Shown here: positions 1,138 to 23,832 of the stretch, in pieces
Numbering within the stretch: the first letter of the stretch is position 1
Layout of the letters: every line of letters begins with the position of its first letter
Position numbers and translations under genes: made by a program
From: an uncultured Candidatus Poseidoniales archaeon
GTDB lineage: Archaea > Thermoplasmatota > Poseidoniia > Poseidoniales > Thalassarchaeaceae
Direction: 5' to 3'
DNA: 64,000 nt
NCBI GenBank assembly: GCA_902625325.1
Contig: CACOAW010000006.1
Span: 1-64,000, forward strand
Notes under the pieces: generated by a model
What the model was told of the DNA's origin: nothing
The model's input: the letters and a program-made list of their open reading frames with translations, nothing else
Database searches by the model: none

Positions 1138-3186
1138 TTGGGGATGCAAACTTATGGACGGTCAATACTCCAGAAGAATTCCATGTCGGAGGGAGATTTT
1201 GAGAATGGCGACCTATTCTTCGCGCACGAGTCTCCAAGAGAATCGCAGAAAGAGATGATAGCAGACGGAATAAACGCACTGAAAGACGGTCGTTTCTTAC
1301 TTGCTGCGGCCCCTACAGGGATAGGGAAGACGGCTGCAGCACTAGCGTCCGCGCTCAAGGTGGCTAACCTATACAGTACTAGTTCTGAGACTCCGAAGAT
1401 ACTTTTCCTCACTGGACGACAGTCGCAGCATAGGATAGTTGTCGATACAATCAGGGAGATCAACAGAAGGATACCTCAAGGATTCAACAGAGTGAAGTTG
1501 GTGGACATCATTGGTAGGGAAGGAATGTGCAAAAACGTTGACAAAACCACTGGAAAATGCAATTGTGAGGCCGGAGTAACAGAGTCAGAAAGAAGATTCC
1601 TAAGATCTGACCTAGAAGAGTATATCCACTCAGAACCTAGACACGTTGATCAAACCCTGAAACATGCTGAAAGGAGTGACGTTTGTGCTTGGGCCACCGC
1701 CAGAGATGCGGCTAAATCTACAAACATCATCGTTTGCGACTACAATCACGTTTTCGTAGAAGGGGTCAGGGAGGCATCTCTCCCGGTAATGGGTGTTGAA
1801 TTAGGCAACTCGATACTAATTGTCGATGAGGCACACAACCTTCCGGATAGAATTAGAAGTGGTTTGGAGAGGAGGATAACCGAGAGGGTCTTCCAGAGGG
1901 CTTTGACAGAAGTAGAAGAATACAAGGAAAATATGCAGAAGAACCAGAAGGAATTAGATATACCGGAATCTAGCCAACTTAGAGAAGCAATCTCATTAGA
2001 GAAGCAAATTAAGGCGTTAAAAGAAGACTCCAGTCTGGTAAAGTGGTTCGGAGACAAGAGGAGTGAAATTGGCAATTCTAAGAGTGATGATCTAAGGGTT
2101 GATACACAAGAATTCCTAGATGTTATCGCCGGAGCAATTGAAGGAGTTCTCGAACATGATTCGGACGATGGCATCCAAAGAATCAAGATGATGATATCGA
2201 GATTATTGTCTGTTGTGGTGGATGAGGATGAAGACCTCGATGATGAAGAGCAAAATGATTGTATAAGACTCGGTGAAATTCTAGAGATTTGTATAAGATA
2301 CAGGGGCAATTCTGCATTAGCCCTGGTATTCGATGAATTGATGGATCAACCGCGTGTCACAAGCCATCTTCTAGATCCGAGTTTTGTTGGTAAGCCAATC
2401 TTCAAGGAATGCATGGGTTCAATTCTCATGTCGGGGACATTATTTCCTCCAGAGATGTATGCTGATATTCTAGGAATTCCTAAGGAACTCACCAATTGTA
2501 TTGAGTACTCCTCGGGTTTTCCTCTTGGAAATAGGCCTGTTCTCATTGCCAGTGATGTAACTAGCAAATACACTGAGAGAGAGAATAGTTTTGACTCGAT
2601 AATAGAACACGTTAGATCAGTGATTGATAATACTCCGGGTAATATAGCAATCTTCGCTCCTAGCTATTCGATGCTTGAAAGAGTATATGGTGAGTTTTGC
2701 CCACCTAATTGGTGTTGTAAAACAATAATCAAAGAAGAGCAAAGAATGAGTAAAAAAAGAGTCGAGGAACTTGTTTCCAAGTTATATGAGCAGAGAGATA
2801 TGGGGGGGGTGGCTCTCTTCGGAGTTCTAAGCGGGAAGTTGTCCGAAGGGGTTGATTACTCTGACAATGTCCTGAGTGCATTGGTCTGTGTAGGACTGCC
2901 GCTTCCGCCCCCAAGTGCCAGACAGGATGCCCTATTGGAATACTACACTAAGAAATTCGACAGGAATAGGGCATGGAAATACGCCAGCCTCCAACCTGCA
3001 GTGAATAGCATACTGCAAGCACTTGGAAGGCCCATTCGGAAGAAGGAGGATAGGGCGATAATAGTCCTCTTAGAAAAAAGGCTTCTAGAAAACAGAGTCA
3101 TTAGATGTATGCCAGAAATGCAGAAGATGCAGACTTCGAATTCTCTCAGGACAGCTGAGAGAGTAAGCTCGTTCTTCCAGATGTGA
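1138..3186 (+). CDS. XPD/Rad3/DinG-family ATP-dependent DNA helicase (likely start 1183)
   Basis: Walker A AAPTGIGKTAAAL, DEAH box LIVDEAHNLPD, FeS-type cysteines between motifs I and II, C-terminal QALGRPIRKKEDRA. Confidence 0.9.
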   Translation: MGMQTYGRSILQKNSMSEGDFENGDLFFAHESPRESQKEMIADGINALKDGRFLLAAAPTGIGKTAAALASALKVANLYSTSSETPKILFLTGRQSQHRIVVDTIREINRRIPQGFNRVKLVDIIGREGMCKNVDKTTGKCNCEAGVTESERRFLRSDLEEYIHSEPRHVDQTLKHAERSDVCAWATARDAAKSTNIIVCDYNHVFVEGVREASLPVMGVELGNSILIVDEAHNLPDRIRSGLERRITERVFQRALTEVEEYKENMQKNQKELDIPESSQLREAISLEKQIKALKEDSSLVKWFGDKRSEIGNSKSDDLRVDTQEFLDVIAGAIEGVLEHDSDDGIQRIKMMISRLLSVVVDEDEDLDDEEQNDCIRLGEILEICIRYRGNSALALVFDELMDQPRVTSHLLDPSFVGKPIFKECMGSILMSGTLFPPEMYADILGIPKELTNCIEYSSGFPLGNRPVLIASDVTSKYTERENSFDSIIEHVRSVIDNTPGNIAIFAPSYSMLERVYGEFCPPNWCCKTIIKEEQRMSKKRVEELVSKLYEQRDMGGVALFGVLSGKLSEGVDYSDNVLSALVCVGLPLPPPSARQDALLEYYTKKFDRNRAWKYASLQPAVNSILQALGRPIRKKEDRAIIVLLEKRLLENRVIRCMPEMQKMQTSNSLRTAERVSSFFQM

Positions 3187-3226: not shown

Positions 3227-3682
3227 ATGGAGTGGACGAGCATAGATGTCGAGTCGGGCAAAGATATCAGGGATGAGGTCGATGGATTGGCGGATCTCAA
3301 GGTCGGGCTTGACACCGATGCTGAGTCCATGCACCGGGAGTTCATGAGGGGCCTGCCTCACCTATCTGATGTACAAGAGATGCACTCATCCGTAGTTTCG
3401 GAAATAGAGTCTAGGGCACTAAACGATGAAGTCTCATCACTAGGGGATTTCCTATCGGAAATAGGTGGCGAATGGTCTGGCAATGACATCCATATCCCCC
3501 TCCCCTCTTTTCAGAGGGAAGGATTCTCCATCGGCACTAGAGAAGACGGAGACGCTCAGCTAGTCAGAATAATGTCAATTGAGAATTTTGGAGGAATGAT
3601 CAGGTCATTCCGCCTGCCGGAAGGAATGAGGGTCGAGGGAGCCAAGTGGGAAGGAGATATCGTCTCCATCAGGTTGGATTGA
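3227..3682 (+). CDS. Hypothetical protein; C-terminus weakly resembles Hsp20/alpha-crystallin fold
   Basis: 151-aa ORF in a gap; C-terminal FGGMIRSFRLPEGMRVEGAKWEGDIVSIRLD. Confidence 0.6.
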   Translation: MEWTSIDVESGKDIRDEVDGLADLKVGLDTDAESMHREFMRGLPHLSDVQEMHSSVVSEIESRALNDEVSSLGDFLSEIGGEWSGNDIHIPLPSFQREGFSIGTREDGDAQLVRIMSIENFGGMIRSFRLPEGMRVEGAKWEGDIVSIRLD

Positions 3683-3683
3683 G

Positions 3684-6600
3684 TCACTCTTCCATTTCGA
3701 ACTCGAGCGGACCTCTCTTCGGGATATCCTGCATCGCCTCGATCTCCTCAACTACTGAGGACAGGGCCAGTTGAGCGTTGTCCCTGTGGGCATCTCCTAG
3801 GACGTGGCTGGAGTACCGTGCTTCCTCGAAAATCCTGTCAAGCGAAACCAATGATGCCTCGCTAATGGGCAATGCGCCTCGGATGGCCATCTCGAACTCC
3901 CTGACGGTCTCGAAGTTACGGCGCAGGAACCCGCGTCGCGTGAGGACTGAGCATAGGTTCTCATAGCACAGGAAGATGGCTCTCCTGTACTCGTCACCGG
4001 ACGCTAGCATCTCAACCGTCTGTCCGAAAATGTTGGCTAGCTCCTTGATGGTGGACTTCCTCCTAGTGTTGATGGCCATGGCACCCATCGCTACTAGAAT
4101 GGCCCCCACAACAATAGCCCCAATGGCCACTATTGCCCTATCTAGGAAGGATTCCTCCTCTGGCTTCTCATAGGCGATTTGGATCCCTGAAGAAGGGAGC
4201 AGAGCCAAGCTACCTGGTTCGATGAATTCCGAGTCGGACATCAACAGAACGGCGAGCACCCCCCATCCCTCGGGAGGAGGGGATTGCGAGGACAGTGGAG
4301 GCAGGGGTGCCATTGACTTGAACTCGTATTCGAAGACCCCATCCGCCCCCGTCAGTTTGGATACGGAGAAGTGAGTGACGCTGCCGTTGGCGAGGCTAGC
4401 ACTCAGAGAGAGGCCTTCCAAAGGAGCTCCAGTGTCCCTTGCCGTGGCGTTCACTGAGCCCCTGATTATTCTCTGCCCATCGGATAGTTCTATTTCCGAG
4501 TATTCGAAGTCGACCTCGACCATGACAAGAATCCCAATCTCCTTGGACCCGCCGTTAAGGAAGCTTGCTTGATTCGGCTCCACAATAATCGTAACCATGT
4601 TATCTCCCGGTGTCATGAACTCCTGTGCCTTGGCTCTGATCTGGAAAACCCTAGTGTCGGGATTGCCCCAAGGTCCCGATGTCATGGGGAGTTCGGTTTC
4701 CCCCCAAACAAGAGACATGGAGAGATTATCGAAAATTTGTGACTCTCCGCCGACCTCCCTTATCAGGCCCTGGAGCATTATCGATCGTGAAGGGGAGGAG
4801 TCTCCCCTCACTATCGTATTTGTAATCGGTTGCATCTCTATAACGACGTCAGATAGGGCGAATACCTCTATTTGTGATTCAGCAGGAAGGTAAAGGAACT
4901 CTCCCTTGAATAGGAGCGTGAAGTTGTGAGAGCCCCTGTCTAGGGAGTACTGCACCCTGTGACTCAGTGTGAACAGTCCTCCCTCTTCTGTAGTTATGGT
5001 TTCTACATCTGAGCCGTCTAGCAGAACAGTGATTTCCCTACCTTCTAGACCTTGCTCGAAACCTGTGTCGGACTCGAAGAGTCTGCCGCTGAAGTTCCAA
5101 TATCCGCCGCGTGTTGCATAGCTACCCTCAACCTGCAGGGATATCTCGGTATGATACGATACGGTGAAGTTGGACTCTGAAGACCCCTGTCTGTAGAATC
5201 CTTGAGCAGGTGCAATTGCGGAAATGGAATGGTTTCCTATTTCTAGAGATTCCGAAACCACCCATTGCAGGCTCCAGTCACCATCCTGCTGACTGCTTGT
5301 AATGCCAATGAGGACCCCGTCCACGAAGACCTCGATAGTATGGCTTTCCAGCCAACCGTTCTCAAGATTATCCTTGACAGCACCGGATACTATTATTTCA
5401 TCCCCTACTGCAAGTGGTCCGAGGTCATCAATGGTGAGCGAGACGGGTGCGAAGACGGTGAATACCACGGTGGAGTTGGACGGGAGGATGAAGTCCTCAC
5501 CAAGGAACTCAACTCCGATGATTATGGGGCCTAGTGGCATATCGGATGGAATCGGCACCAGACCTACGAAGGATCCGTTGGAGTCTACGGAAATCGAGGT
5601 TGTTTCCTGCCCGTCCACTGAAAGGACGATATCTCTATTCGGAATGGGCCTCCCCACGCCGTCAGTGAGCATACCCTCAATAATGGCGACCTCGGTCCTG
5701 TCTATCTCAGTTGGGGAAGTTGAAATCACTACTTGTGAAGGCTGTGTCACGTTGAATGCCAGGGAGTCAAATGAGCCTAGGTAATACTCGGGATTAACTG
5801 AGTCCCCCTGTCCCATTGGGTCGACCCATGAGAATCCTCCTAGGAACTCGACTCTCGCTTGGTGTTGTCCAAAATCTATGTCAGAGGGAATCTGGTATGT
5901 TATCGACCACTGTCCCGTAGTAGCGTTTGAGAATGCGGTGTATGCTGGACCTACGTCCACTCCATCAATGTGCAAGTGAATCAGGCCCCCACTTAGGTTA
6001 CCGTCTTCTTTCAACATCTGTCCCCTCTCGTCTTGGAGGGAGCCGGTGAAGGTTACGGAGGACCCTGCGATTGAGGGAGAGGTTGCCTCTTTCAGAATTA
6101 GTTGAGTAGGTGCGAGGACGATGACCCTAGTCCATGTCTCGTCTCCTAAAAGGCCAATGGGTCCGCTGATTCCGGAGAAAGTTGCAGTGACCCTCATCGG
6201 CCCGGGATCTCTGTCTGGCTTGACCAAGATTGATGGCGAAGCGGCCCCATTAGAGTCAGTGAGCCCGCCCCACACGGTGATGTTGTCTACCTCGACAACA
6301 ACGGTTGCGGAGGAGACTGGTGTTCCTGAATTGTCGATGATTGACAGGGACATGTCGAAGGTGTCACCCCGGGTTGTCCTATTGTCGGGATCCAGGTCGT
6401 TCGGGCTTTCAATTGTTAGGACAGAGTAACCTCTGCTATTGAAGGTGGTGAAGGCAGAAGCGGCAGAGAAGTAGGTTACTTGAGGAGTGAATGAAATATC
6501 GATGCCATGAGGACCGCGAGGGAACGACAGATCCAGACGTATCTGGGCTGACCATGAACCATCAGAGTCGAATACAACTGATGGGACAGTGAAGTTTGCG

Positions 6601-9600
6601 GATTCCCCGTCTATCGAGAAAATCAGAGTAGGGTTTAGTGGGTTTCCATTGGTGTCTGACAGACCTGTCCCGTTACTGGAGGTGAGCGAACCCGTGACAT
6701 TGAATGGCTCTCCCGGCAGAGGGTTGGCTTGAATCGGGTCGATTAACATGCTGACGGGAGACCTTACGGTGATGGTGTTCAGAATCTGGACGGCGGGGTT
6801 GAGGTCACCAGAACCATTGAACACGAAGGTTACGTTAACGAGGCCTAGTGGATGGTCGTGTGGTATCTCGAATTCGAAGGAGGCGCTTCCGTCGGCAGCG
6901 GTGACCGAAGGGTCGAGCCAAGTGTCGTGGAAGAGCAAATGAACCTCGAATCCTGCAAGGGGTGCCTCGTTGTTGCTGAACTCGACAAGCCTAGTGGCCA
7001 TAGTGGCTGAGTCGCCCCTGTCGATGATTGTGTTGATGAATGGATTCGTATCAGTGAACTGGGGAACTCCCATGACGAGAATAGATGCATCCCCGTTTCC
7101 GGTTAGGTAGAATGGTGTCGAACCGTTGACTACGCTAACTACTACGGTTCTATCTCCTCTGGTCACTCCGTTTCCTAGGGCATCTGTGGGTACCGAGACA
7201 TTGAACCCTCCCAATGCATTGGTAGTGTGGTTCTCTATCAGTAGCTCGTCGGGCTCGTCCAAGAAGAAGACGTTGATTCCAACCGGTCCGGTTACTGTCC
7301 TGTTTGTATCTGCTGAGTCCATTACAGTCCCAACTATGTCGAAGGATTGGAGGGCAGTCACCTGGCTTTGGATAAACGTGATTTCGACAGTGCTACCCAC
7401 TTGGACTGTTAGATTTGCAAAGCTCTGATTGCCTAGCCACCTTCCTGCCCCAGGGGCCTCGAGAGTGTCAATTACATCATCTGGGGCATGTATCCTAATG
7501 TCATAGAACCCAGGAGGGGTGGAGGATGGTATGGTAGCATCGAAGGATGCTATTCCCTCGGAGTTTGTGCTGGAAGACTGGAGTATGGTCTGTAGAGGGC
7601 CCCCCCAGTCGAAGTACAAGTCAAGCTCTACTCCGGATAGCTCTGCACTCGGATCCTCGATGTCAGTAACAATGGCTTGGATTTCCAGCTGCTCCCCTGC
7701 TGTGACTATCAAAGATGTTGGATCCGATTGAACGACGAACTCTGTCTGGACTCCAATAGGAATTGTAGTCGGATCTGCAGCATTATAGTATGCCCCTCCA
7801 TCAGGGGGATTCGAAGAGAATCCCAGAGTGACCGAAATCTCGTAGACACCGGAGGGTATCCCTGATGGGATTTCGAATGATAGGTTGTAAGAACCAGTTA
7901 GGTTGTCCACCCATCCGCTGGCGATGTTGTATATGGTGGGTGCGGCAGGGAAACCACCGGGAGTTGTGGGGAGGTCGGATGGGACAAGGAGCTGTACCAG
8001 AACAGAGGAGTTGTTCTGTGTGACCGCATTCTGTAGAATCATGTCCCTTGCGATTCCAGAAATCCAGTTCGTGGAACCCCTGACAGACCAATCGCTGGAT
8101 AAGTTTGCAGTGGCGTTGGCTAATCCTCTTACTCTTAGGTCTCCCGAGGTTGAGTTTGCGCTAAGCCATGTAGATCCTGCATAGCTGAGGTTCCATTCAT
8201 AGTCACCGGGCACCATGTTGATTGCCGGGGTGAACGTTGGAGTTACCCTGCCTGCATCTGGGTCTGACTGGTTCCATTCGAGTACTCCGTCGAAGAGCAG
8301 AGTGTAGTCTCCTTCGAAAGATGAGAAAGAGGAGCCTGTATGATCTTCCAGCAAGACGTCCACGGAGTACTCCCTACCCCTGATTGCGAATGGGAGTTCG
8401 TAGTCGAATACCACGAAGCTACGAATTCCGAACGTATCGGAGAACTGTTCCTGATCGTTCGCATTTAGATTATCGGAGTCGAACTGGAATCTGACGTCAA
8501 CGGGACCTGCTGGTATTGGAACCTCAGCAGCAGAGAAAGGCCAAGTAATTGAGAATTCACCGGGGTTAGACCCCCAAGAAGAGTTGTTCAGGTACCAAGA
8601 GGAAAGTTCTACGAATGGCCCGGAAATGTCGGCCCTCCTCATTTCCAACATAAGTGTCCCGTTAAGTGGCGAAGGGGACGGGCCCCTGCTCAGGACAGTT
8701 CCATTAAGGTACACGTTGCTTCCAATTTCCAGAATTGAGTTGTTTGTCGACTGCGCCTCTAAGTCAACGGTCAGGTTAGGAGACAGAGTGATGTTGAGTT
8801 TGAAGGAATAGTTTCTAGGTCTGGCATGGTAGGATGGCGGTGTTTCGTTGTTGAGGTCATCAAAGTGCCAACCATCGAATGAAATTGCCGCATCCATCAG
8901 CCCAAGAGGCTCGGTCTCGTCTATCGGGACCATGAACTCATAGTAACCACCGCTGGAGACTCCTGATGTGATTGATACCTCTCCATCAACTTGGGATGAG
9001 TAGTTCAGAACAACCTGCATATCGTCTCTTATTGATGGATCAAGGAATGGGGAGCTAGCCCAAGATAGTTGCCCAGTGATAGACGAGTTCACACCTATTC
9101 CCAGCATAGGCTGATTGACGGGGATTGGATTAGTGATGGAGAGAGAGACGTTGTCTGAGATATTCAGTAACCACGCCATCGTTATTCCCTGAACTCCGAC
9201 ATAGCCTTTTTCAGAAGTCAGAATGACCAATGAACCGAACCCGGGCTGGATTACTTCCTGGGGTAATCCTGTTAGGTTGAATGTTCCATTGGAATCTGTC
9301 GAAACGCTGGAAACGACATGCTCAGGAATAGCTGCGCTGCCCGGGACGTTGTCAGATGATTCTGGGCCCACTAAGTAAAGAGACAGCGAGACGTTTTCTA
9401 CCGGTGTCTGATTTTCTGAGAATAATAGGGTCCCTTGTACCCATATTTCTTCTGAAATGGATATGTTCCTTTCTATCGAGGTTGGACCCCAAGATTCCAC
9501 ATTGACTGTTACTTCCGACATCGGGGGACATGCCTCGAACGGGATCCAACCCATATCCAATTCTCCTTGGTTCTGATTTGTCTGAAGGTGCACTTCCGCC

Positions 9601-12600
9601 CATCTCGTGAAGTCTTTCCCATACACATTGAAGGCCTTGCCATCCCAAGTCCCTCCTGCGAATCCGGTTACCTTCCTTGCAGGCATCCCGGCTATTCTCA
9701 ACATCGTAACGAAGACCGAAGTGAATTCGTCACAGTTTCCTTCTCGGGAAGAGTTCAGAATCCAGTGAGAAATGTCGCTATCACTCCCCATCCCATCGGG
9801 CCTTCCTGAGCCGAAATGGTTCCTTAGGAATGATATGGTCTCATTTCCATTGACAAGGAAGTCCTGAATTGCCTTGATTTTGTCCCATGCTGAAATTGCT
9901 CCGGACTGTTCCAGTATGTCCTGTGTCAGATTGACCACAAAATCTCCGTTATCAAGGAAGTTCTGAGGGAGGTCTTTGCCGTATTCTGAATCATCGAATG
10001 AAGTGGAGTTATCTGTAATCTCAGTACTAAAAATCACCTCTGGGGCATTCACGTAAAGTGCCTCAATTACAGCGGCGTCGACGATCACGTCTCTAGTATA
10101 GTTAGAGAAATTAAGTCCGGCGGTAAAGTCTACCCAGGTCGTGTAGTTGACTACATTGAATGGCTGTATTAACTCTTGGCCGGGCCCGATGTATCCAGCT
10201 TCATCGAAGATGATCTCCCATGAAAGAGGTCCTGAATGATTCCAGAAGGACTGGTCTGCAACTCCCTGTTCAACAGAGAATTCTGGCATAATCTGAGTGT
10301 TTCCGACAAGAGTGCTGTTCACTCCCCACGAGACTCCAGTGTAATAGTCGTAAGTGTGCCATCTCCAGTAGTGCCTTACAGACGGGTCAAGACCGTCTGA
10401 GGTGTTCGTCGCAGTGAATATTAGGGAGTTCTCCTGAATATCGTCAGAAGGATCGAAGGGATCGCTTGGAGAGCCGATACAGTCTAGCTCCCAGAAATCC
10501 TCTGGGCATTCTTCGCCGTCAGGCACTCCCCCTCCATCTGAGTCTGGATCTAACCAATCAGTACCGAGGTCCAACTCTATGGAATCAGGGATCCCATCAC
10601 CGTCCGTATCCAGGGGATTAATGTCATCATCGGGATTATCCTGGGGGTTTGTACCGTCAAGGTATTCTTGGCCGTCATCAACTCCTCCGGAGTCGGAGTC
10701 TGCTACGTTCCAAAGAGTGAACCAGACATCGCTAGTAAGATTACCACCAATACCGTAAATCATCGAGCACCCCGTAGAGTTCTCGAAGTAGTTGTTGAGG
10801 CCATCCCCATCTGAATCGAGAAGGTTGTCACAGGGCTCCCTTGGGTCTGTATCGTTCAGTATCTCCGAGAGGTCGTTCACGCCGTCTCCATCGGTATCGA
10901 ATAGATTAGGATCGGATAGGTAGCCCCAAGTTGCTGTCAATTCCTCCCAATCGGCCAGTCCGTCACCATCTGTGTCCTTGTAGTCATCATCACACCATGG
11001 GTCGTTAGTTGCGTTTGGAGAAGCATCCCAGCACCAAGAGCCGTTTGTAATCAGTATGGTATTGGAACCCGCTGGGGGTTCGACATCCACGCCCCTCATG
11101 AACACTGACTCCAAGGACGAGTAGCTGAAGGGTGTTTGAGTGCCGTTGGAAGAAATATAGTAAGCCATTGGAGGGCTTCCCCTCCAGTCTACGGGGTCCG
11201 GGTCGATTCCCTCTGAAGAGTTCAGAGTAAGTGTGTCCGCCTCTCCGTCCCATGCTATTACAGTGAAGACTAGATTGAGTGCTGAGGTGCAGGGATCGGT
11301 CTGTCCGGGAAAGCCTTCGTCTCCATCGTTTATGCCCCCTCCATCCGTATCAGCGACGTTCCAAAGGGTGCATGAGTTGTTCTCCTCCCAATTCTGAAGA
11401 CCGTCGCCATCAAAGTCCCCCTCGTCGTTTATCCTAGTCGGATCGGTCTCTCCAGTGTCAATCACTCCGTTTCCGTTAAGGTCCTCCTCCCCATCATCCA
11501 AATAGTCACCATCGGTGTTATTGTCACGTGGGTCTGAGCCTTGAGCGGGATCTCCGTAGGAGCCGTTATACTCGATTCCATCCAAAATCCCATCACCATC
11601 TGTGTCAGGAGAGGTTGGATCAGTAAGCAACACTAATCCCTCGAATGAGTCATTTAGGCCGTCGCCGTCAGTATCGTTGTTCTGTGGGTCTGTCTGCGTT
11701 ATTCCATCCACCTCTGCGGTGAATATCGCACATCCTCCTGGTCCCAGAGAGAGTATCGGGTTACATGGCGACTCAGTGATTGTCATGTTTATTGGCCCTG
11801 GTCTGAAATATTGGGTAGGGGGGAATGTTGAGCCGTTCCTAGTCCCCCAAGCAGGATTGACGTACTCGTAGATGTTAGCTAAACCATCGAAGTCTGGATC
11901 CCCGTATGTTCCGTCCTGATTTGAATTTGAAGTTGGATCCAAACCGTTTGCTATCTCCCAACCATCTGGCATGCCATCTCCATCGGTATCCCAGCCGTTG
12001 GGGTCTTCGTCGATTTCTCCGTCCCCATCGTCATCATCAGAGCTGCAATCTGCATCACCGTCGAAGTCATTGTCATTTGAGTCGACCATCCCATCGTGGT
12101 CGTTGTCGAAGGTGTCAGTGCAGATGTTTCCTACCGGATCCTCATCAGCACCATCGGATCCTGAGCCTTGAATTACTTGCATTGCACTCTCCTCGTCCCA
12201 ATTTGAAACTGGGATGGTCCCGTTCCACCAAACACCATTGTCAAGGACATTGGTAGTCGAGGGTTCGTCCCAGCCAGAGGGTATTCCGAATAGGTACTCG
12301 TTGAGATTTGTTAGGCCATCGGAATCTGGATCGCCAGTAGAACCGTTATCCCCCAATGAAGATAGTGGATCCAGGCCGTACTGCCACTCCCACCCATCTG
12401 GGAGGCCATCATTGTCAGAATCCCAATCTTGGGGTTGTGTGTTGATGATGAACTCGATACCGTATGGAAGACCGTCTGCATCCTGATCGTTGTTTGAAGC
12501 CGAAGCCTCGGATGCAGAAAAATGGATTGAAGCCGTACTCGATATTAGGAACAGGAATGTCAGGAGTGTGGCTGATCTCTTCTTTGATGATTCGAGATTA

Positions 12601-12695
12601 CCTCCGTAATTCGCAATTACGAACCTCATGCTATGTGTCACAGATTCTTGGCGATAACTTGGGGTCTTAAGCAGAATGGAGCGTCGTTCGTACAT
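3684..12695 (-). CDS. Giant (~3000 aa) secreted, membrane-anchored protein: DxDxDG (TSP3-like) repeats, transglutaminase-like domain, many Ig-like modules, C-terminal TM and DUF4129-like tail
   Basis: N-terminal hydrophobic SATLLTFLFLISSTASIHFSASEASA; repeated DTDGDGLxD; REGNCDEFTSVFVTMLRIAGMPARKVTGFAGG...WAEVHL...GWIPFEACPP; TM AIVAIGAIVVGAILVAMGAMAI; tail ...LTRRGFLRRNFETVREFEMAI...LDRIFEEARYSSH. Start may be the internal Met at 12629. Confidence 0.9.
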   Translation of the reverse strand: MYERRSILLKTPSYRQESVTHSMRFVIANYGGNLESSKKRSATLLTFLFLISSTASIHFSASEASASNNDQDADGLPYGIEFIINTQPQDWDSDNDGLPDGWEWQYGLDPLSSLGDNGSTGDPDSDGLTNLNEYLFGIPSGWDEPSTTNVLDNGVWWNGTIPVSNWDEESAMQVIQGSGSDGADEDPVGNICTDTFDNDHDGMVDSNDNDFDGDADCSSDDDDGDGEIDEDPNGWDTDGDGMPDGWEIANGLDPTSNSNQDGTYGDPDFDGLANIYEYVNPAWGTRNGSTFPPTQYFRPGPINMTITESPCNPILSLGPGGCAIFTAEVDGITQTDPQNNDTDGDGLNDSFEGLVLLTDPTSPDTDGDGILDGIEYNGSYGDPAQGSDPRDNNTDGDYLDDGEEDLNGNGVIDTGETDPTRINDEGDFDGDGLQNWEENNSCTLWNVADTDGGGINDGDEGFPGQTDPCTSALNLVFTVIAWDGEADTLTLNSSEGIDPDPVDWRGSPPMAYYISSNGTQTPFSYSSLESVFMRGVDVEPPAGSNTILITNGSWCWDASPNATNDPWCDDDYKDTDGDGLADWEELTATWGYLSDPNLFDTDGDGVNDLSEILNDTDPREPCDNLLDSDGDGLNNYFENSTGCSMIYGIGGNLTSDVWFTLWNVADSDSGGVDDGQEYLDGTNPQDNPDDDINPLDTDGDGIPDSIELDLGTDWLDPDSDGGGVPDGEECPEDFWELDCIGSPSDPFDPSDDIQENSLIFTATNTSDGLDPSVRHYWRWHTYDYYTGVSWGVNSTLVGNTQIMPEFSVEQGVADQSFWNHSGPLSWEIIFDEAGYIGPGQELIQPFNVVNYTTWVDFTAGLNFSNYTRDVIVDAAVIEALYVNAPEVIFSTEITDNSTSFDDSEYGKDLPQNFLDNGDFVVNLTQDILEQSGAISAWDKIKAIQDFLVNGNETISFLRNHFGSGRPDGMGSDSDISHWILNSSREGNCDEFTSVFVTMLRIAGMPARKVTGFAGGTWDGKAFNVYGKDFTRWAEVHLQTNQNQGELDMGWIPFEACPPMSEVTVNVESWGPTSIERNISISEEIWVQGTLLFSENQTPVENVSLSLYLVGPESSDNVPGSAAIPEHVVSSVSTDSNGTFNLTGLPQEVIQPGFGSLVILTSEKGYVGVQGITMAWLLNISDNVSLSITNPIPVNQPMLGIGVNSSITGQLSWASSPFLDPSIRDDMQVVLNYSSQVDGEVSITSGVSSGGYYEFMVPIDETEPLGLMDAAISFDGWHFDDLNNETPPSYHARPRNYSFKLNITLSPNLTVDLEAQSTNNSILEIGSNVYLNGTVLSRGPSPSPLNGTLMLEMRRADISGPFVELSSWYLNNSSWGSNPGEFSITWPFSAAEVPIPAGPVDVRFQFDSDNLNANDQEQFSDTFGIRSFVVFDYELPFAIRGREYSVDVLLEDHTGSSFSSFEGDYTLLFDGVLEWNQSDPDAGRVTPTFTPAINMVPGDYEWNLSYAGSTWLSANSTSGDLRVRGLANATANLSSDWSVRGSTNWISGIARDMILQNAVTQNNSSVLVQLLVPSDLPTTPGGFPAAPTIYNIASGWVDNLTGSYNLSFEIPSGIPSGVYEISVTLGFSSNPPDGGAYYNAADPTTIPIGVQTEFVVQSDPTSLIVTAGEQLEIQAIVTDIEDPSAELSGVELDLYFDWGGPLQTILQSSSTNSEGIASFDATIPSSTPPGFYDIRIHAPDDVIDTLEAPGAGRWLGNQSFANLTVQVGSTVEITFIQSQVTALQSFDIVGTVMDSADTNRTVTGPVGINVFFLDEPDELLIENHTTNALGGFNVSVPTDALGNGVTRGDRTVVVSVVNGSTPFYLTGNGDASILVMGVPQFTDTNPFINTIIDRGDSATMATRLVEFSNNEAPLAGFEVHLLFHDTWLDPSVTAADGSASFEFEIPHDHPLGLVNVTFVFNGSGDLNPAVQILNTITVRSPVSMLIDPIQANPLPGEPFNVTGSLTSSNGTGLSDTNGNPLNPTLIFSIDGESANFTVPSVVFDSDGSWSAQIRLDLSFPRGPHGIDISFTPQVTYFSAASAFTTFNSRGYSVLTIESPNDLDPDNRTTRGDTFDMSLSIIDNSGTPVSSATVVVEVDNITVWGGLTDSNGAASPSILVKPDRDPGPMRVTATFSGISGPIGLLGDETWTRVIVLAPTQLILKEATSPSIAGSSVTFTGSLQDERGQMLKEDGNLSGGLIHLHIDGVDVGPAYTAFSNATTGQWSITYQIPSDIDFGQHQARVEFLGGFSWVDPMGQGDSVNPEYYLGSFDSLAFNVTQPSQVVISTSPTEIDRTEVAIIEGMLTDGVGRPIPNRDIVLSVDGQETTSISVDSNGSFVGLVPIPSDMPLGPIIIGVEFLGEDFILPSNSTVVFTVFAPVSLTIDDLGPLAVGDEIIVSGAVKDNLENGWLESHTIEVFVDGVLIGITSSQQDGDWSLQWVVSESLEIGNHSISAIAPAQGFYRQGSSESNFTVSYHTEISLQVEGSYATRGGYWNFSGRLFESDTGFEQGLEGREITVLLDGSDVETITTEEGGLFTLSHRVQYSLDRGSHNFTLLFKGEFLYLPAESQIEVFALSDVVIEMQPITNTIVRGDSSPSRSIMLQGLIREVGGESQIFDNLSMSLVWGETELPMTSGPWGNPDTRVFQIRAKAQEFMTPGDNMVTIIVEPNQASFLNGGSKEIGILVMVEVDFEYSEIELSDGQRIIRGSVNATARDTGAPLEGLSLSASLANGSVTHFSVSKLTGADGVFEYEFKSMAPLPPLSSQSPPPEGWGVLAVLLMSDSEFIEPGSLALLPSSGIQIAYEKPEEESFLDRAIVAIGAIVVGAILVAMGAMAINTRRKSTIKELANIFGQTVEMLASGDEYRRAIFLCYENLCSVLTRRGFLRRNFETVREFEMAIRGALPISEASLVSLDRIFEEARYSSHVLGDAHRDNAQLALSSVVEEIEAMQDIPKRGPLEFEMEE

Positions 12696-12704
12696 TTGAA
12701 GTGC

Positions 12705-15659
12705 TCAAATAAGCTCGACATCTTCATCTTCGTATCTGTCCGCTGCTCTCGGAGATTCTTCCACCACTACTGGTGCTGGTATGTCAGGTACTTCAGACGG
12801 TACATCTTCATCTGATTCCGACAGGGATTCGAGCATCCGCATTTGTGCTGCCCATCTCCTTCTGTTTAGTCGGCTCTGGACTCCTGCAAACAAGAGTAAA
12901 ACGCTGACTGCGAAGAGTACCATTGAAATTGGCCTGGGATGAACAATCTCGTTCACCACTATCTTGGAAATTGATGAGATTTCGACAATCGCAACTAGAG
13001 TGAACTGGGCCTTCAATGAGTCTGCAAAGCTCTGCTCGGTATCTAGAGGGGTTGCAGTAATTGAAATCGGAACCGACTGTCCGTTATTTGCTGATCTTGG
13101 TACGGAAATCTCCACTGTAAAAGTAGCCTGATCAAATTGGTCTATCTCAATCAGTGGGGAGCCGGATAGGCCACCGATTGAGACTTCCCAGCTGCTTTCA
13201 TCGACATCAGCCTCAAGAAGAACCGTCATAGGACTATTCCCTTCGTTTTTGACAATCATTGTAATCGAGTAATCGTTACCTGGTGAGAACTTCTTGTTGG
13301 GCGATTCCTGAACTATCTCCAGCAACGGATCTACTGCGTCGACTTCGAATGTCATAGGTAGATCGAAATAGCGAGGATTATCTTCATTCACATCCTCCAC
13401 GATTCTTAGGAAAACTGTGTGATTGCCCGCATCTACCTGATTGGTCATAGTTACGCTAAGGAATACTTCAGTGAAGTCTCCTGGGCCGAGCGAAACACGA
13501 GGAACTGCCTCGCCGTCCGAGTTAGTTATCCTATACTCCCAATTTCCATATTTCGTATCTCTATCCAAATTCTCTTGAAGGCTTGCTGGATTCTTTAGCA
13601 ACCACCATGAGGCCGGGCCTAGTTCGGTATCGCTATTTGTGATTCTCGCTCTGAATTCCAGAACGGGCCTATCCTGTCCGGGAGCACACAGAGCGACCTC
13701 CATGTGACCCAGTGGGGTGCCGTCGCAGTCCTGAGAAATCTCAGCTCTTATCCCATAAGTTCTCTGAATGGTGAATGAGACCTTAGTGGACGTAGATGCG
13801 TTTCCACCGCTGATTACCTCAATCTCGATTTCTCCGATATCGTCGTCCTCTCTATCGAGGCTTGGCTTGATTCCCAGAATCAAAACTTGGGTGTTGTGCC
13901 TCTCAAGAAGGGAGGTGTGGAATGTACCATCTCCCTCATCCTGGAGTATCCGTTGACCGGTTAGATTGTCGTGTAGTTGGAATATTGACTTTGACCTCTT
14001 GAGGATGTCGATCCTAAAGGTATCGGCATCGAAGCCAGAGTTGAATATCTCTAGAATGAATGAGTTGAACTCTCCATACTCAGCGAATCTTGGTATCGTT
14101 GAGTCTAGGGCGTCTCCTCTCGAAGAGTTAGCAATGGGAATCTTGTGATCCTCTGACCAAATAGAAACTACTGGTGGTTGGTAGACATCGATTTTCTCGA
14201 CGTTTAGGACCAGAGTATCCTGATGAACAACGGAGATAACCCCATCAACATCTGCTTCGGCTATGGCTCTAATCTCTATCTTTTTGGGCATACCTGTGAG
14301 GTCATCTGGAGCTGTGAGTGTGACTGTAGGATTGAGAATAGAACCGCCCGAACTCATCTCGTACCCGGCTGGAGAATCGAACTCTACCAGCCATGAGCTT
14401 CCTAGATTTGTTAGGACTTCCAACTCTACGTTCATCGATTTTGTCGAGTCTCCCCTGTGCACTAGAACCATTGGCACGGGTGTTACCTTACCTGGTGCGA
14501 AATACTCTACGGGTCGATCGAATCTATGCTTCAATGAAACACCAAATTGGTGCATTTCGATTGGCTCGTGCTCTATCTCGATCTCATTACCTCCAACGTC
14601 TCTTACCTTGAGGATGACTGTGTATTCACCGGGGATTAGTCCGCTATTGTAGGTATGGAAATACTTGCCGAAGATCCCTGTACTAGAGTCCTCTATTTCT
14701 TCCATATCCCCAGTTATTCTTTGGTCTACCTCGTAATTACCATTTGGACCCCTCATCAGAATATCAACCCGTGATATATCGCTCCTTCCGAAAGCACTGA
14801 TTGCGTCCATAGAGAACTGCATCTTCCTGTCTTCGATTACATCGTTAGGATACCAATCTAATTCGGAGCCCTCGGCAATATTGGCTCCTTCCCTTTGAAC
14901 AACAATGATGCTATTCATCAGAGCATTACCGTTAGCCTCCATCTTTGAAAATTTATTTGGCTCATTGTCTATCCTGTTGAAGGCAACGTCAGCAGAGCAG
15001 TCGGAACCGCCGAACGGACTACCCCCCCCATCGCATCCAGACATACTAGCCCTTACTTTGACTATCAGCCTCTCACCTTTCCTCACATCGAAGGACTCCG
15101 ATGAGCCGATGCCGACGTCGATTATTTCATGATCAAAGTCGCAACTGCTACCAAACGAAGCAGTACAAACTGATCCGGAGTAAGTAGTAGAGCCAAGAGT
15201 CCTTTCTGTCGTCATAACGGTTACGGTCCAATCCACGTTAGAATTCTGAGGGCCCTCTGACTTGAGGAACAGTTCGACGGGAACGTAGTGTGTTTCATTG
15301 GCAAAGAATTTTCTTCCGAACAATTCCAGAGTTGACATCATAGATATTGACATGAACTGCACGTCGTCATCGAGTGCGCTAGCAGTTACCTGATCGGCAC
15401 TTGATGCTGGTGGTTGAGTGCTGATGAGTCCGTCCATGCCTGCCGTCTGGTTCTGTCCGGGCTCAACGAAGTAGAGTTTGTACAGATTTGCTGCTGGATC
15501 GCTTTCAGACGAGTCAGCCCTGTGGAAATTCGGTAGCCCATCTGCTTGTAGATTCATGTCCGTGGGCAATGCCACCAATATTACAAGAGTCAGGGAAACA
15601 AGGGCACTTCGGGCAACACTAGGGGATGAGTTCCAAATTGGCACATTACCGCGCCGCAT
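12705..15659 (-). CDS. Extracellular Ig-like/NEW3-like domain protein with C-terminal TM and acidic cytoplasmic tail
   Basis: N-terminal signal-like LVSLTLVILVALPTDMNLQA; beta-rich modules (NNGQSVPISITATPLDTEQSFADSLKAQFTLVAIV); TM PISMVLFAVSVLLLFAGVQSRLNRRRWAAQM; acidic tail. Confidence 0.8.
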   Translation of the reverse strand: MRRGNVPIWNSSPSVARSALVSLTLVILVALPTDMNLQADGLPNFHRADSSESDPAANLYKLYFVEPGQNQTAGMDGLISTQPPASSADQVTASALDDDVQFMSISMMSTLELFGRKFFANETHYVPVELFLKSEGPQNSNVDWTVTVMTTERTLGSTTYSGSVCTASFGSSCDFDHEIIDVGIGSSESFDVRKGERLIVKVRASMSGCDGGGSPFGGSDCSADVAFNRIDNEPNKFSKMEANGNALMNSIIVVQREGANIAEGSELDWYPNDVIEDRKMQFSMDAISAFGRSDISRVDILMRGPNGNYEVDQRITGDMEEIEDSSTGIFGKYFHTYNSGLIPGEYTVILKVRDVGGNEIEIEHEPIEMHQFGVSLKHRFDRPVEYFAPGKVTPVPMVLVHRGDSTKSMNVELEVLTNLGSSWLVEFDSPAGYEMSSGGSILNPTVTLTAPDDLTGMPKKIEIRAIAEADVDGVISVVHQDTLVLNVEKIDVYQPPVVSIWSEDHKIPIANSSRGDALDSTIPRFAEYGEFNSFILEIFNSGFDADTFRIDILKRSKSIFQLHDNLTGQRILQDEGDGTFHTSLLERHNTQVLILGIKPSLDREDDDIGEIEIEVISGGNASTSTKVSFTIQRTYGIRAEISQDCDGTPLGHMEVALCAPGQDRPVLEFRARITNSDTELGPASWWLLKNPASLQENLDRDTKYGNWEYRITNSDGEAVPRVSLGPGDFTEVFLSVTMTNQVDAGNHTVFLRIVEDVNEDNPRYFDLPMTFEVDAVDPLLEIVQESPNKKFSPGNDYSITMIVKNEGNSPMTVLLEADVDESSWEVSIGGLSGSPLIEIDQFDQATFTVEISVPRSANNGQSVPISITATPLDTEQSFADSLKAQFTLVAIVEISSISKIVVNEIVHPRPISMVLFAVSVLLLFAGVQSRLNRRRWAAQMRMLESLSESDEDVPSEVPDIPAPVVVEESPRAADRYEDEDVELI

Positions 15660-17091: not shown

Positions 17092-18186
17092 ATGTCGTTC
17101 TTCTATTCGCTTATTCCGATGGAAAGGCGGTTGCCAATCATCGATGTCGAAAGGAATGGGGCTGGAGGCTGTGGAGTATCCGTCGAAATGAGCCCCCTAG
17201 AGAAGCGGAAATCGATGCGAAAGAGGCTACCGGATTGGTTCAAGACATCCCTCCCGACAGGAGTTGCACAGGCTAGATTCAATGGTACCAAGGGAAATGT
17301 CGTAGAACATGGCCTGAATACCGTGTGTGAGGAGGCTAGATGTCCAAACATACACGATTGCTGGGGAAGGGGCACTGCTACTTTCATGATTGCTGGGGAA
17401 GTTTGCACCAGGGGGTGCAGGTTCTGTGCGGTCGGTACGGTCAGAACGCCGCCTGACCTGGACCCTGATGAGCCCAGAGAGTTAGCGGATGCAGTGAAAA
17501 GAATGGGGCTTAGTTATGCGGTCATTACAGTTGTAAATAGAGACGATCTTTCTGATGGGGGGGCTTCTCATTACAAGGATTGCATCCTCAGAGTTTCTGA
17601 GACTAATCCGGGGGTTGGCCTAGAGCTTCTATGCTCGGATTTAGATGGGAACTTGAATTCCCTGGAAATGTTACTTGAAGGGCTGCCCCTGAAGGTTTTC
17701 GCTCACAATGTCGAGTGTGTGCCTCGATTAGATAGCGTCGTTAGGGACCGGCGTGCCTCATTTGAACAATCACTCAAAATACTCAGGCATGCAAAGGAGC
17801 TTCGCCCTGATCTAATGACGAAGACCAGCCTTATGGTCGGATTAGGAGAGACTGATGAAGAGATTTCGGAGGCAATGGAAATGGTGAGGGAAGCGGGAGT
17901 GGACATGATCACTCTAGGACAATACTTGCAACCAAGCACAAGGCACCTCCCTATTGACAGATTTCCTGAACCCGAAATCTTCGCAGACTGGGATGGGACT
18001 GCTAGGGGCCTAGGCTTCAGAGCCGTGGCTAGCGGCCCTCTGGTTAGGTCAAGCTATCGAGCGGGTCTACTGTGGGAGGAGGCAATGGGTGGTGAGCCTG
18101 TTGTCACAAGAGACTCAACAGGTTCTGCGGTAAGTCATATTTTTTCTGAAAAGCGTGGCATTTCGGCAAAGGTGGAGAATCCATGA
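17092..18186 (+). CDS. lipA: Lipoyl synthase (radical SAM); start probably 17113 or later
   Basis: EARCPNIHDCWGRGTATFMIAGEVCTRGCRFCAVGT, VITVVNRDDLSDGGASHY, TKTSLMVGLGETDEEI, GQYLQPSTRHLPI. Confidence 0.95.
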   Translation: MSFFYSLIPMERRLPIIDVERNGAGGCGVSVEMSPLEKRKSMRKRLPDWFKTSLPTGVAQARFNGTKGNVVEHGLNTVCEEARCPNIHDCWGRGTATFMIAGEVCTRGCRFCAVGTVRTPPDLDPDEPRELADAVKRMGLSYAVITVVNRDDLSDGGASHYKDCILRVSETNPGVGLELLCSDLDGNLNSLEMLLEGLPLKVFAHNVECVPRLDSVVRDRRASFEQSLKILRHAKELRPDLMTKTSLMVGLGETDEEISEAMEMVREAGVDMITLGQYLQPSTRHLPIDRFPEPEIFADWDGTARGLGFRAVASGPLVRSSYRAGLLWEEAMGGEPVVTRDSTGSAVSHIFSEKRGISAKVENP

Positions 18187-18201
18187 GTAGGAGGCGCGGT
18201 A

Positions 18202-19437
18202 ATGTCGTCAGACGATAGGAAGGGAAGCATACGAGTCCCGGATGCACCATTCAGGCCGGGAGATGAGGCTAGCTTCGATAGCTGGCCATGGAAGCCGGGC
18301 GATTTCTCTATGCCGGATCCGAAGACTTGCGAATTCAAAGATACCACAGATCTAGCTAACGGCTTGGTCAGGGTACTCGATGACGATGGTGTAGCCACGG
18401 GGGAATGGGACCCAGGACTCTCTGCCGAGGAGCTGCAAAACGGTTTGGAACATATGGTTAGGCTCAGGATATTTGATGATCGGATGATGAAGATGCAGAG
18501 GACTGGTTTGCTTTCGTTCTACATGAGGTCCCTGGGTGAGGAGGCGGTCGCTATCGCACAGACAATGGCCCTCCAAGAGCAAGACTGGATTTTCCCCACA
18601 TATAGACAGCCAGGGGCTCAGTTTGTTCGAGGAAGGGACATGGTCAGCATGATTTGTCATTGCATCGGTAATGAGGAAGACAACATCAAGGGCAGGCAGA
18701 TGCCAGTACACTACTCCTACAGGGAAGGTAGATTCATTTCTGTCTCGAGTCCCGTCGGGACTCAGTTCAGTCAGGCAGTTGGAGTGGCACTAGCATCCAG
18801 CTACAAGGGTCTTGACGAGGTGACCATAACGTGGATAGGGGACGGAGCCAGTGCGGAAGGAGACTACCACTACGCTCTCAATTTTGCTGGTGTTTTCAAT
18901 GCCCCTGTAATTCTGAATGTCGTTAACAATCAATGGGCAATTTCTACGCATGCCAACTTCGCAACTGGAATTGGTGATTTCGCTTCCCGAGGCTTGCCCT
19001 ATGGGCTACCCTCAATTAGGGTAGACGGTAATGACTTCTTGGCATTGTATTCGGTAACGAAATGGGCTAGAGAAAGGGCTGCTTCTGGAGCAGGTGCCAC
19101 TCATATCGAAGTGCTCACTTACAGAACAGGAGCCCACAGCAGTAGCGATGATCCCAGTAGGTACAGGCCCGGAGATGAACATACGAAGTGGCCAGGAGGT
19201 GATCCCGTGGTAAGACTCAAGGAGCACCTTATCAATACCGGAGTTTGGAGCGAGGAGAGTCATGCAGAACTTGAGGAAAAGATAGATTCAGAGGTTGTGG
19301 AAGCATACAAAGAGGCGGTAAAGTTTGGCGACCTAGCCAATGGGCCATACCCATCAGCAGATACTATTTTCACCGAAGTTTACGAAGAAGTTCCATGGCA
19401 CCTTCAAGAACAACATGATGAGATGATGGGTGGTTAA
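18202..19437 (+). CDS. 2-oxoacid (pyruvate/branched-chain) dehydrogenase E1 alpha subunit
   Basis: MVRLRIFDDRMMKMQRTG...GEEAVAIAQTMALQEQDWIFPTYRQPG; TPP motif GDGASAEGDYHYALNFAGVFNAPVILNVVNNQWAIS. Confidence 0.93.
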   Translation: MSSDDRKGSIRVPDAPFRPGDEASFDSWPWKPGDFSMPDPKTCEFKDTTDLANGLVRVLDDDGVATGEWDPGLSAEELQNGLEHMVRLRIFDDRMMKMQRTGLLSFYMRSLGEEAVAIAQTMALQEQDWIFPTYRQPGAQFVRGRDMVSMICHCIGNEEDNIKGRQMPVHYSYREGRFISVSSPVGTQFSQAVGVALASSYKGLDEVTITWIGDGASAEGDYHYALNFAGVFNAPVILNVVNNQWAISTHANFATGIGDFASRGLPYGLPSIRVDGNDFLALYSVTKWARERAASGAGATHIEVLTYRTGAHSSSDDPSRYRPGDEHTKWPGGDPVVRLKEHLINTGVWSEESHAELEEKIDSEVVEAYKEAVKFGDLANGPYPSADTIFTEVYEEVPWHLQEQHDEMMGG

Positions 19438-19439
19438 TC

Positions 19440-20450
19440 GTGACGAATATGAATATGATTCAGTCGCTGAACAGCGCTCTTGACATTATGCTAGATGGAG
19501 ATCCCGATGTCATTATCTTCGGAGAAGACGTTGGTTACTTCGGTGGAGTTTTTAGGACTACAGACGGTTTGCAAGAGAAGCATGGAGAGCATAGGGTATT
19601 CGATACGCCTCTGTCGGAAGGTGGAATCGCCGCAACCGCGTTTGGCATGGGTCTAAATGGGCTTAGACCGATTGTGGAGATTCAATTTGCTGACTATATA
19701 TTCCCAGCATACGATCAGATTGTGAATGAGATGGCCAAGATAAGACACAGGTCAGGTGGAGAATTCTGGTCACCAGTCACACTTCGAACCCCCGCTGGCG
19801 GTGGAATTAGAGGGGGGCACCATCACTCCCAATCCCCTGAGTCCCAATTTACCCACACCCCGGGGTTGAAGGTTGTCTACTGCTCAACCCCCTACAATGC
19901 CAAAGGCCTATTGATTAGCTCAGTGGAGTGCAACGATCCTGTTATCTTTTTCGAGCCCAAAAGGTGTTACAGGGGGCCATTCTATGGAGATCCACACAAA
20001 GTTCCAACCTGGTCTGGTCATCCGGAGGCTGAAGTTCCAGAAGGCGAGTACAGAATTCCACTCGGCCAGGCTAGAATGGCCTTGGAGGGAACCGAATGCA
20101 CCGTAATATCTTGGGGGGCCATGGTACACGTGTGTGAGCAGGCAATCAAAGATAGCGGATTCTCATGCGATCTCATAGACTTGCAAACTCTTGTCCCCTG
20201 GGACAAGGAAACCGTAGTTGGTTCGATAGAGAAGACTGGTAGGTGCGTGATTGCGCATGAGGCTCCAAAGACTAGCGGATTCGGAGCAGAGATGTCAGCA
20301 TCGATTCAGGAGAGGTGCTTCTACCACCTCGAAAGTCCCATCATTAGAGTAACTGGATGGGACACACCTTTCCCCCATACTACTGAATGGGATTACATGC
20401 CCGGACCGACTAGGATTGCCACGGCGATAGCGAAAACACAGGAGGACTAA
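19440..20450 (+). CDS. 2-oxoacid dehydrogenase E1 beta subunit
   Basis: FGEDVGYFGGVFRTTDGLQEKHGEHRVFDTPLSEGGIAATAFGMGLNGLRPIVEIQFADYIFPAYDQIVNEMAKI. Confidence 0.95.
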   Translation: MTNMNMIQSLNSALDIMLDGDPDVIIFGEDVGYFGGVFRTTDGLQEKHGEHRVFDTPLSEGGIAATAFGMGLNGLRPIVEIQFADYIFPAYDQIVNEMAKIRHRSGGEFWSPVTLRTPAGGGIRGGHHHSQSPESQFTHTPGLKVVYCSTPYNAKGLLISSVECNDPVIFFEPKRCYRGPFYGDPHKVPTWSGHPEAEVPEGEYRIPLGQARMALEGTECTVISWGAMVHVCEQAIKDSGFSCDLIDLQTLVPWDKETVVGSIEKTGRCVIAHEAPKTSGFGAEMSASIQERCFYHLESPIIRVTGWDTPFPHTTEWDYMPGPTRIATAIAKTQED

Positions 20451-20451
20451 G

Positions 20452-21729: not shown

Positions 21730-21736
21730 GGTTCTT

Positions 21737-23170: not shown

Positions 23171-23832
23171 GGTATCTGATGGGAAGAGTCGCCGTACTAA
23201 GGTGTGGAATCGTGGAATACCACGTAATTTTTGATTTGATGAAGGACCTCCAAAAGAAGAGGATTGCAGGGAAGATAGAAGACACGCTAATATTTGTTCA
23301 GCATCCAGAAGTAGTCACTATCGGCCCAAAGGCTGCTAGAGAAGAGGTCTCGATTGAAGGCTATCCAACTATTGAGACCGATAGGGGAGGAGGAGTGACT
23401 TGGCACGGACCGGGGCAACTAGTCGTTTATCCGATAATAAAGTGGAGGGTCCAAGAGCAGAGTGTAAGAGGGGTAATAGGGAGCTTAGAGGATTGGGCTA
23501 TAGAGGCGCTAGAGGAGTGTGGGATAACTTCCTACAAAGACCCAGAGATGCAGGGAGCTTGGGTTGACGGGCACAAGGTCTGCTCGATCGGGCTGTCTTT
23601 CCTCCACTGGGTTAGCAGGCATGGAATGTCGATAAACATCGATACCCCGGACAATCGAGTTGAGCGGATAGAATGCTGTGGAATTCCTGCAGGAAAGCAC
23701 ACTAGTCTGTCAAAGTTAGGATACGACGTAGACATAAACAGGATTGAGAGGTGCCTTATCGAGACCTGTGAAGAGGTTCTCGGCAGGACTCCCATGGAAC
23801 CTGTTGATTGGTTTCCGGAGATGGTGATTTGA
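23167..23832 (+). CDS. lipB: Lipoyl/octanoyl transferase (start likely 23179)
   Basis: DRGGGVTWHGPGQLVVYPI, GAWVDGHKVCSIGL, ECCGIPAGKHTSLSKLG. Confidence 0.95.
   Translation: MRYLMGRVAVLRCGIVEYHVIFDLMKDLQKKRIAGKIEDTLIFVQHPEVVTIGPKAAREEVSIEGYPTIETDRGGGVTWHGPGQLVVYPIIKWRVQEQSVRGVIGSLEDWAIEALEECGITSYKDPEMQGAWVDGHKVCSIGLSFLHWVSRHGMSINIDTPDNRVERIECCGIPAGKHTSLSKLGYDVDINRIERCLIETCEEVLGRTPMEPVDWFPEMVI

Follow-up and report, generated by a model that had tools for sequence, protein, structure and literature searches.

The window analysed here is a 64,000-nucleotide stretch of DNA from an uncultured Candidatus Poseidoniales archaeon (contig CACOAW010000006.1), and the subject of this work is the giant surface protein that it encodes on the minus strand at positions 3684-12695. 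As a preliminary description made from the letters alone had stated, the reading frame is single and uninterrupted, staying open for 3003 amino acids (aa). The probability of such a frame arising by chance at the local GC content is about 10^-58, which together with the orthologues found in relatives rules out a chance or artefactual open reading frame (ORF). From the N- to the C-terminus, the giant consists of a signal segment, an array of TSP3-type DxDxDG repeats, a TgpA-like transglutaminase fold, about 16 immunoglobulin (Ig)- or macroglobulin (MG)-like modules, one transmembrane (TM) helix and a DUF4129 tail (Table 1).

The transglutaminase-like and DUF4129 assignments of the preliminary description both lie above the Pfam cut-offs. 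Transglut_core (PF01841) matches residues 959-1055 with an E-value of 3e-12 (47 bits against a cut-off of 23), and DUF4129 (PF13559) matches residues 2910-2977, behind the TM helix, with an E-value of 3e-6 (27.6 bits against 24.8; 35 bits in the genome search). In the AlphaFold2 (AF2) model of residues 480-1180 the transglutaminase region has a mean predicted local distance difference test score of about 90, and its top Foldseek match is the periplasmic domain of TgpA from P. aeruginosa (PDB 6g49, E 2.5e-13), which is likewise the best PDB match by hidden Markov model profile. Ahead of the core, TgpA_N gives a sub-threshold Pfam match at residues 752-792; outgroups have a homologous region with stronger, though likewise sub-threshold, TgpA_N matches, and the Foldseek match spans this part of the giant. 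The N-terminal multi-TM segment typical of the TgpA family is absent, and hydropathy shows a single hydrophobic helix (about 2850-2878) besides the signal segment.

The remaining parts of the proposed layout, namely the Ig/CarboxypepD_reg stalk, the TSP3-type repeats and the TM helix, were supported by Pfam matches, hydropathy and AF2 models of segments. CarboxypepD_reg is above the Pfam gathering cut-off, and Big_1, MG2 and six TSP3_bac repeats are just under it. The AF2 model of residues 1960-3003 contains beta-sandwich modules in a row, a long helix that includes the TM segment and the four DUF4129 helices, and Foldseek relates the stalk to macroglobulin and titin-like modules. Residues 70-721 contain 21 DxDxDG-type motifs, and the ectodomain is acidic, the net charge of the entire giant being -340. 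The richness in N-x-S/T sequons that had been pointed out also holds, with 78 of them in the giant, most in the ectodomain.

The catalytic positions were read in 119 orthologues, 41 of them from a full-length search. The 80 fetched loci, whose genomes overlap the first set, were obtained with a pattern containing Cys1056, so that for this residue the 41 sequences of the full-length search are the sole unbiased sample. An active site assumed from the Pfam match alone was dropped once the alignment columns were read. The nucleophile position, Cys988, is Cys in all 119 sequences. At position 1030, two residues before the invariant Trp1032, there is T, S, A, G, R or N and never His; when the domain is aligned by profile with TgpA (6g49) and with homologues from other Thermoplasmatota, the His of their H-A-W motif falls in this very column. 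No other His of the domain is invariant across the 119 orthologues, and the nearest one, H1036, was rejected as a substitute, being R, Q, N or K in 23 of them. The third, acidic triad position is occupied by E (95), D (17), N (5) or Q (2), and D or E is also found in outgroups that have both Cys and His. A further residue, Cys1056, is invariant in 119/119 orthologues, at a position that is normally Thr in this fold and is Thr or Ser in nearly all outgroups. Thus, judged from its sequence, the transglutaminase-fold domain of the Poseidoniales giant is probably catalytically dead and, as a catalytic residue is missing throughout the lineage, probably serves as a structural or binding part. Recent decay was rejected since the core is under purifying selection: its ratio of nonsynonymous to synonymous substitutions (dN/dS) is 0.03-0.04, against 0.10 for the stalk, in two close pairs, the only ones of five comparisons with unsaturated dS.

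The distribution of cysteines suggests what became of the nucleophile. Among 102 near-complete ectodomains, 81 share the identical 14 Cys. Additional Cys are even in number in 20, where they mostly form recurring pairs (176/183, 287/296, 2668/2671 and 2770/2817), and odd in one. This is the pattern expected if the cysteines of the ectodomain are all paired. In nearly all orthologues the transglutaminase-like domain contains no Cys besides Cys988 and Cys1056, and in most of them no other Cys lies between residue 740 and the TM helix, so that the two are probably bonded together. Cys988 would then be locked in a disulfide with a newly gained partner.

The preliminary description had envisaged an ectoenzyme on a stalk that crosslinks or cleaves surface proteins. 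In this reading Cys988 and a residue replacing the His would crosslink, deamidate or cleave proteins of the surface or of particles, which is compatible with the invariance of Cys988, the intact fold and the strong constraint; moreover, TgpA itself shows transglutaminase activity in vitro (PMC3507681). However, the ectoenzyme reading is left unsupported because none of the 119 orthologues has the catalytic His or an invariant substitute for it. The variation of H1036 and of the acidic position, the apparent pairing of Cys988 with Cys1056 and the frequent loss of Cys instead in relatives also speak against it, and we regard an active enzyme as improbable.

The giant is nearly universal in the order. 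The gene or pieces of it were found in 59 of 60 relatives, and the remaining one (63% complete) shows only a second giant, described below. Complete copies are colinear over their entire length at identities between 38% and 96%, and the 99 frames of full length range from 2955 to 3098 aa. A phylum-wide search recovered one copy in almost every Poseidoniales genome. Three exceptions were examined: G149 and G371, in which the core was missing or barely present, hold fragments of the gene at contig ends, and G255 (90% complete) shows only the second giant. Named records with the giant belong to Marine Group II/Poseidoniales, many of them to Thalassarchaeaceae. One record titled Chloroflexi bacterium (PBAZ01000027.1) has a Poseidoniales-type giant at 57% identity and is probably mislabelled or a mixed bin. 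Expansion of stalk repeats between species was not seen, the length being constant and the matches colinear over the whole protein. Median identity across orthologues is 78% for the TSP3 region, 62% for the core, 51% for the stalk, 28% for the TM helix and 68% for DUF4129.

These values bear on the possibility that the giant is mainly an adhesin or a component of the surface coat, in which a glycosylated Ig stalk and a Ca2+-binding head would bind particles or cells or form the envelope, the DUF4129 tail being a mere anchor. The TSP3 repeats, the Ig modules and the many sequons fit this idea, and the widespread thrombospondin genes of Poseidoniales were related to adhesion by Rinke et al., who did not describe the giant (PMC6461757). 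However, a mere-anchor role looks odd because the tail is among the most conserved parts, and length and module order are fixed across the order, unlike those of variable adhesins. We consider this explanation rather unlikely, if clearly less so than an active enzyme.

Large proteins of 1000-2850 aa with TSP3, transglutaminase, Ig, TM and DUF4129 regions are also encoded by outgroup Thermoplasmatota (e.g. L173, L177, L178, L179 and L183). Among the 19 outgroup proteins placed in a tree, which was built on 130 columns and is weak in its deep branching order, Ser or Ala stands in place of the Cys in 11, requiring at least three changes, and 18 keep the His; the Poseidoniales clade (support 100/99) has lost the His and kept the Cys. 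Two genomes of the same class and another family encode a TSP3 protein of 974 or 982 aa, then a stalk-TM-DUF4129 protein of 2020 or 1976 aa, followed by DUF4350-MoxR-DUF58, an arrangement that looks like the architecture of the giant divided over two genes. The giant is the Poseidoniales variant of a Thermoplasmatota family within the TgpA/DUF4129-MoxR-DUF58 realm and its architecture is not unique. The earlier remark that this giant arrangement looks unusual was thus correct only in part. Within Poseidoniales the arrangement does not vary, and proteins built from the same domains, differently ordered and of other sizes, are found next to DUF4350/MoxR/DUF58 genes in other Thermoplasmatota.

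The giant is the second gene of a conserved tandem pair, behind a 984-aa membrane protein that lies directly upstream at every Poseidoniales locus with enough flank and was not detected in the outgroups. A helicase gene and a small ORF usually flank the other side in Poseidoniales, and the helicase also adjoins the giant-type gene in outgroups L177, L179, L180, L190 and L191. In most outgroup loci with enough flank the giant-type gene is adjacent to DUF4350/MoxR/DUF58: DUF4350 with MoxR and/or DUF58 come after it in L173/L195, L176, L177, L179, L182, L183 and L186, and MoxR-DUF58 in L184 and L187. No MoxR/DUF58 operon was found within the window or beside the giant at other Poseidoniales loci. 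In the genome to which the window belongs, DUF4350-MoxR-DUF58 and DUF4350-DUF58 loci (L036, L037) lie elsewhere. DUF58 is present in 60/60 relatives, and most Poseidoniales genomes have exactly two DUF58 genes, matching the two DUF4129-tailed giants, one of about 3000 aa and one of about 2640 aa, that nearly all of them carry. The second giant sits upstream of ribosomal-protein genes and has a counterpart of about 2600-2740 aa in nearly all Poseidoniales searched. Some outgroups hinted that each giant goes strictly with its own DUF58 set, but L195 and L199 contradicted this. Apart from these genes, the window contains at 17092-23832 one run of genes for lipoyl synthase, pyruvate/2-oxoacid dehydrogenase E1 alpha and beta, E2, E3 and lipoate ligase; a similar lipoate/dehydrogenase run lies near the giant in a distant genome (G037, L041).

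Table 1. Features of the giant and related genes; positions are those of the window unless a locus is named
Feature	Position	Strand	Evidence
Giant surface protein, whole ORF, 3003 aa	3684..12695	minus	ORF; orthologues in relatives
N-terminal hydrophobic signal segment, residues ~40-67	12495..12578	minus	sequence inspection
Acidic TSP3-type DxDxDG repeat region, three cysteine pairs, residues 70-480; most conserved part	11256..12488	minus	Pfam, motif count, identity
Beta-rich insert, one cysteine pair, residues ~480-570	10986..11258	minus	AF2 strands
Second TSP3-type block, two cysteine pairs, residues 570-740	10476..10988	minus	Pfam, motif count
TgpA-type beta domain with YWRxxTYDxYTGxSW motif, residues 755-900	9996..10433	minus	sub-threshold TgpA_N, outgroup homology, Foldseek 6g49
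Transglutaminase-like core, residues 915-1060	9516..9953	minus	Pfam PF01841, AF2, Foldseek, dN/dS
Cys988, nucleophile position	9732..9734	minus	Cys in 119/119 orthologues
Thr1030, catalytic His position	9606..9608	minus	never His in 119 orthologues
Cys1056, lineage-specific second invariant Cys (outgroups usually Thr)	9528..9530	minus	orthologue columns
Stalk of Ig/MG-like beta-sandwich modules, residues 1090-2840, ~16 modules by extrapolation	4176..9428	minus	Pfam, AF2 of 1960-3003, Foldseek
TM helix, residues ~2851-2880	4056..4145	minus	hydropathy, AF2 helix
Predicted cytoplasmic four-helix DUF4129 tail, residues 2900-2990	3726..3998	minus	Pfam PF13559, AF2
984-aa tandem partner, secreted Ig/NEW3-like, C-terminal TM; 9-nucleotide gap to giant	12705..15659	minus	ORF, Pfam, synteny
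151-aa convergent neighbour, no Pfam match, syntenic in many Poseidoniales	3227..3682	plus	synteny
Helicase-like neighbour, 682 aa	1138..3186	plus	sequence features, synteny
Second giant, 2639 aa, acidic DxD-repeat, Ig-like, DUF4129-tailed, without recognisable transglutaminase domain (own genome, contig C2)	L038:5549-13468		
Split TSP3 and stalk-TM-DUF4129 gene pairs (other family, possibly Marine Group III)	L199:7375-16286 and L200:7428-16362		

Since the tip and the tail are conserved, the stalk and the TM helix drift and the operon linkage is found in relatives, we favour, at slightly better than even confidence, the view that the giant works as a transmembrane tether or receptor of the TgpA/DUF4129 type, its head being a pseudo-transglutaminase and its tail contacting DUF4350-MoxR-DUF58 partners. 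The signal-targeted ectodomain would place the TSP3 head, presumably stabilised by Ca2+, and the TgpA-like domain at the tip of the Ig/MG stalk, which may act as a long spacer between head and membrane. The base His being gone and the nucleophile Cys probably held in a disulfide, the domain would have lost its activity and been retained for binding or structure. The single TM helix would link the ectodomain to a helical DUF4129 tail on the presumed cytoplasmic side, and this outside-in tether or receptor might engage the cytoplasmic or membrane DUF4350-MoxR-DUF58 set through direct contact of the tail, perhaps with participation of the 984-aa protein. Some points weigh against this proposal. 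Non-triad chemistry may still take place at Cys988, and the pairing of giants with DUF58 sets is inconsistent between lineages, with MoxR-type sets next to both giants in L195 and L199. Moreover, the giant is no longer beside DUF58/MoxR in Poseidoniales, where ancestry and copy number are the grounds for a functional link.

The same genes could be read as a scaffold for envelope biogenesis, in which the giant, its 984-aa neighbour and MoxR/DUF58 would form a chaperone machine that folds or inserts surface proteins. MoxR AAA+ proteins have been described as chaperones that assemble complexes (PMC8430577), and the near-universal retention of a single copy agrees with such a role. However, there is no direct evidence of clients, and a stalk of 1700 residues would be superfluous for a membrane-proximal chaperone, which makes this scaffold hard to credit as well.

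Poseidoniales are abundant, uncultured archaea of the surface ocean whose envelope is poorly described, and the MoxR/DUF58 membrane system is widespread and poorly understood. Encoded by a near-universal single-copy gene of 9 kb, fixed in length and conserved at both ends, the giant is a strong candidate core component of the Poseidoniales envelope. Since catalytic residues were lost more than once, His here and Cys in others, it becomes testable whether in TgpA/DUF4129-MoxR-DUF58 systems the transglutaminase-like domain serves for binding rather than for catalysis. Our literature search found no paper describing the Poseidoniales giant and, as far as it reached, both the constancy of the giant across the order and the repeated loss of catalytic residues by different routes are new. 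It is conceivable, at somewhat less than even confidence, that a TgpA-type transglutaminase became a disulfide-locked, non-catalytic recognition head on a receptor of about 3000 residues whose length was fixed order-wide, and that other lineages lost catalysis differently, which would imply a TgpA/DUF4129-MoxR-DUF58 function in the phylum without need for catalysis.

Among known systems, TgpA (P. aeruginosa PA2873) is the best profile and fold match and appears to share the YWR/DxYxG beta domain ahead of the transglutaminase core. TgpA and TgpA-like proteins, composed of TgpA_N, Transglut_core and DUF4129, have, as predicted for the giant, an extracytoplasmic transglutaminase fold and a cytoplasmic C-terminus. 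However, TgpA has six TM helices, an intact Cys-His-Asp triad and measured activity, and was reported to be needed for viability (PMC3507681), whereas the giant lacks the catalytic His, has a single TM helix and carries in addition a TSP3 head and a huge Ig stalk. The proteins of other Thermoplasmatota share its domain set, some of them beside the same helicase gene, but often have TSP3 behind the core, keep the His, often lose the Cys, lack the second Cys and are linked to DUF4350/MoxR/DUF58. Transglutaminase folds without a working triad are retained for scaffolding or binding in EPB42, FBXO21 and Rad4 (PMC10318531), although these are eukaryotic and intracellular and lost the triad in another way. 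The bifidobacterial PFNA operon (pkb2, fn3, aaa-atp MoxR, duf58 and tgm) resembles the system of the giant in combining a large surface protein of Ig/FN3 type, a transglutaminase-like membrane protein, MoxR and DUF58 (PMC8430577). In that operon, however, the FN3 protein and the transglutaminase have a gene each, whereas the giant carries the stalk and the transglutaminase fold in one polypeptide.

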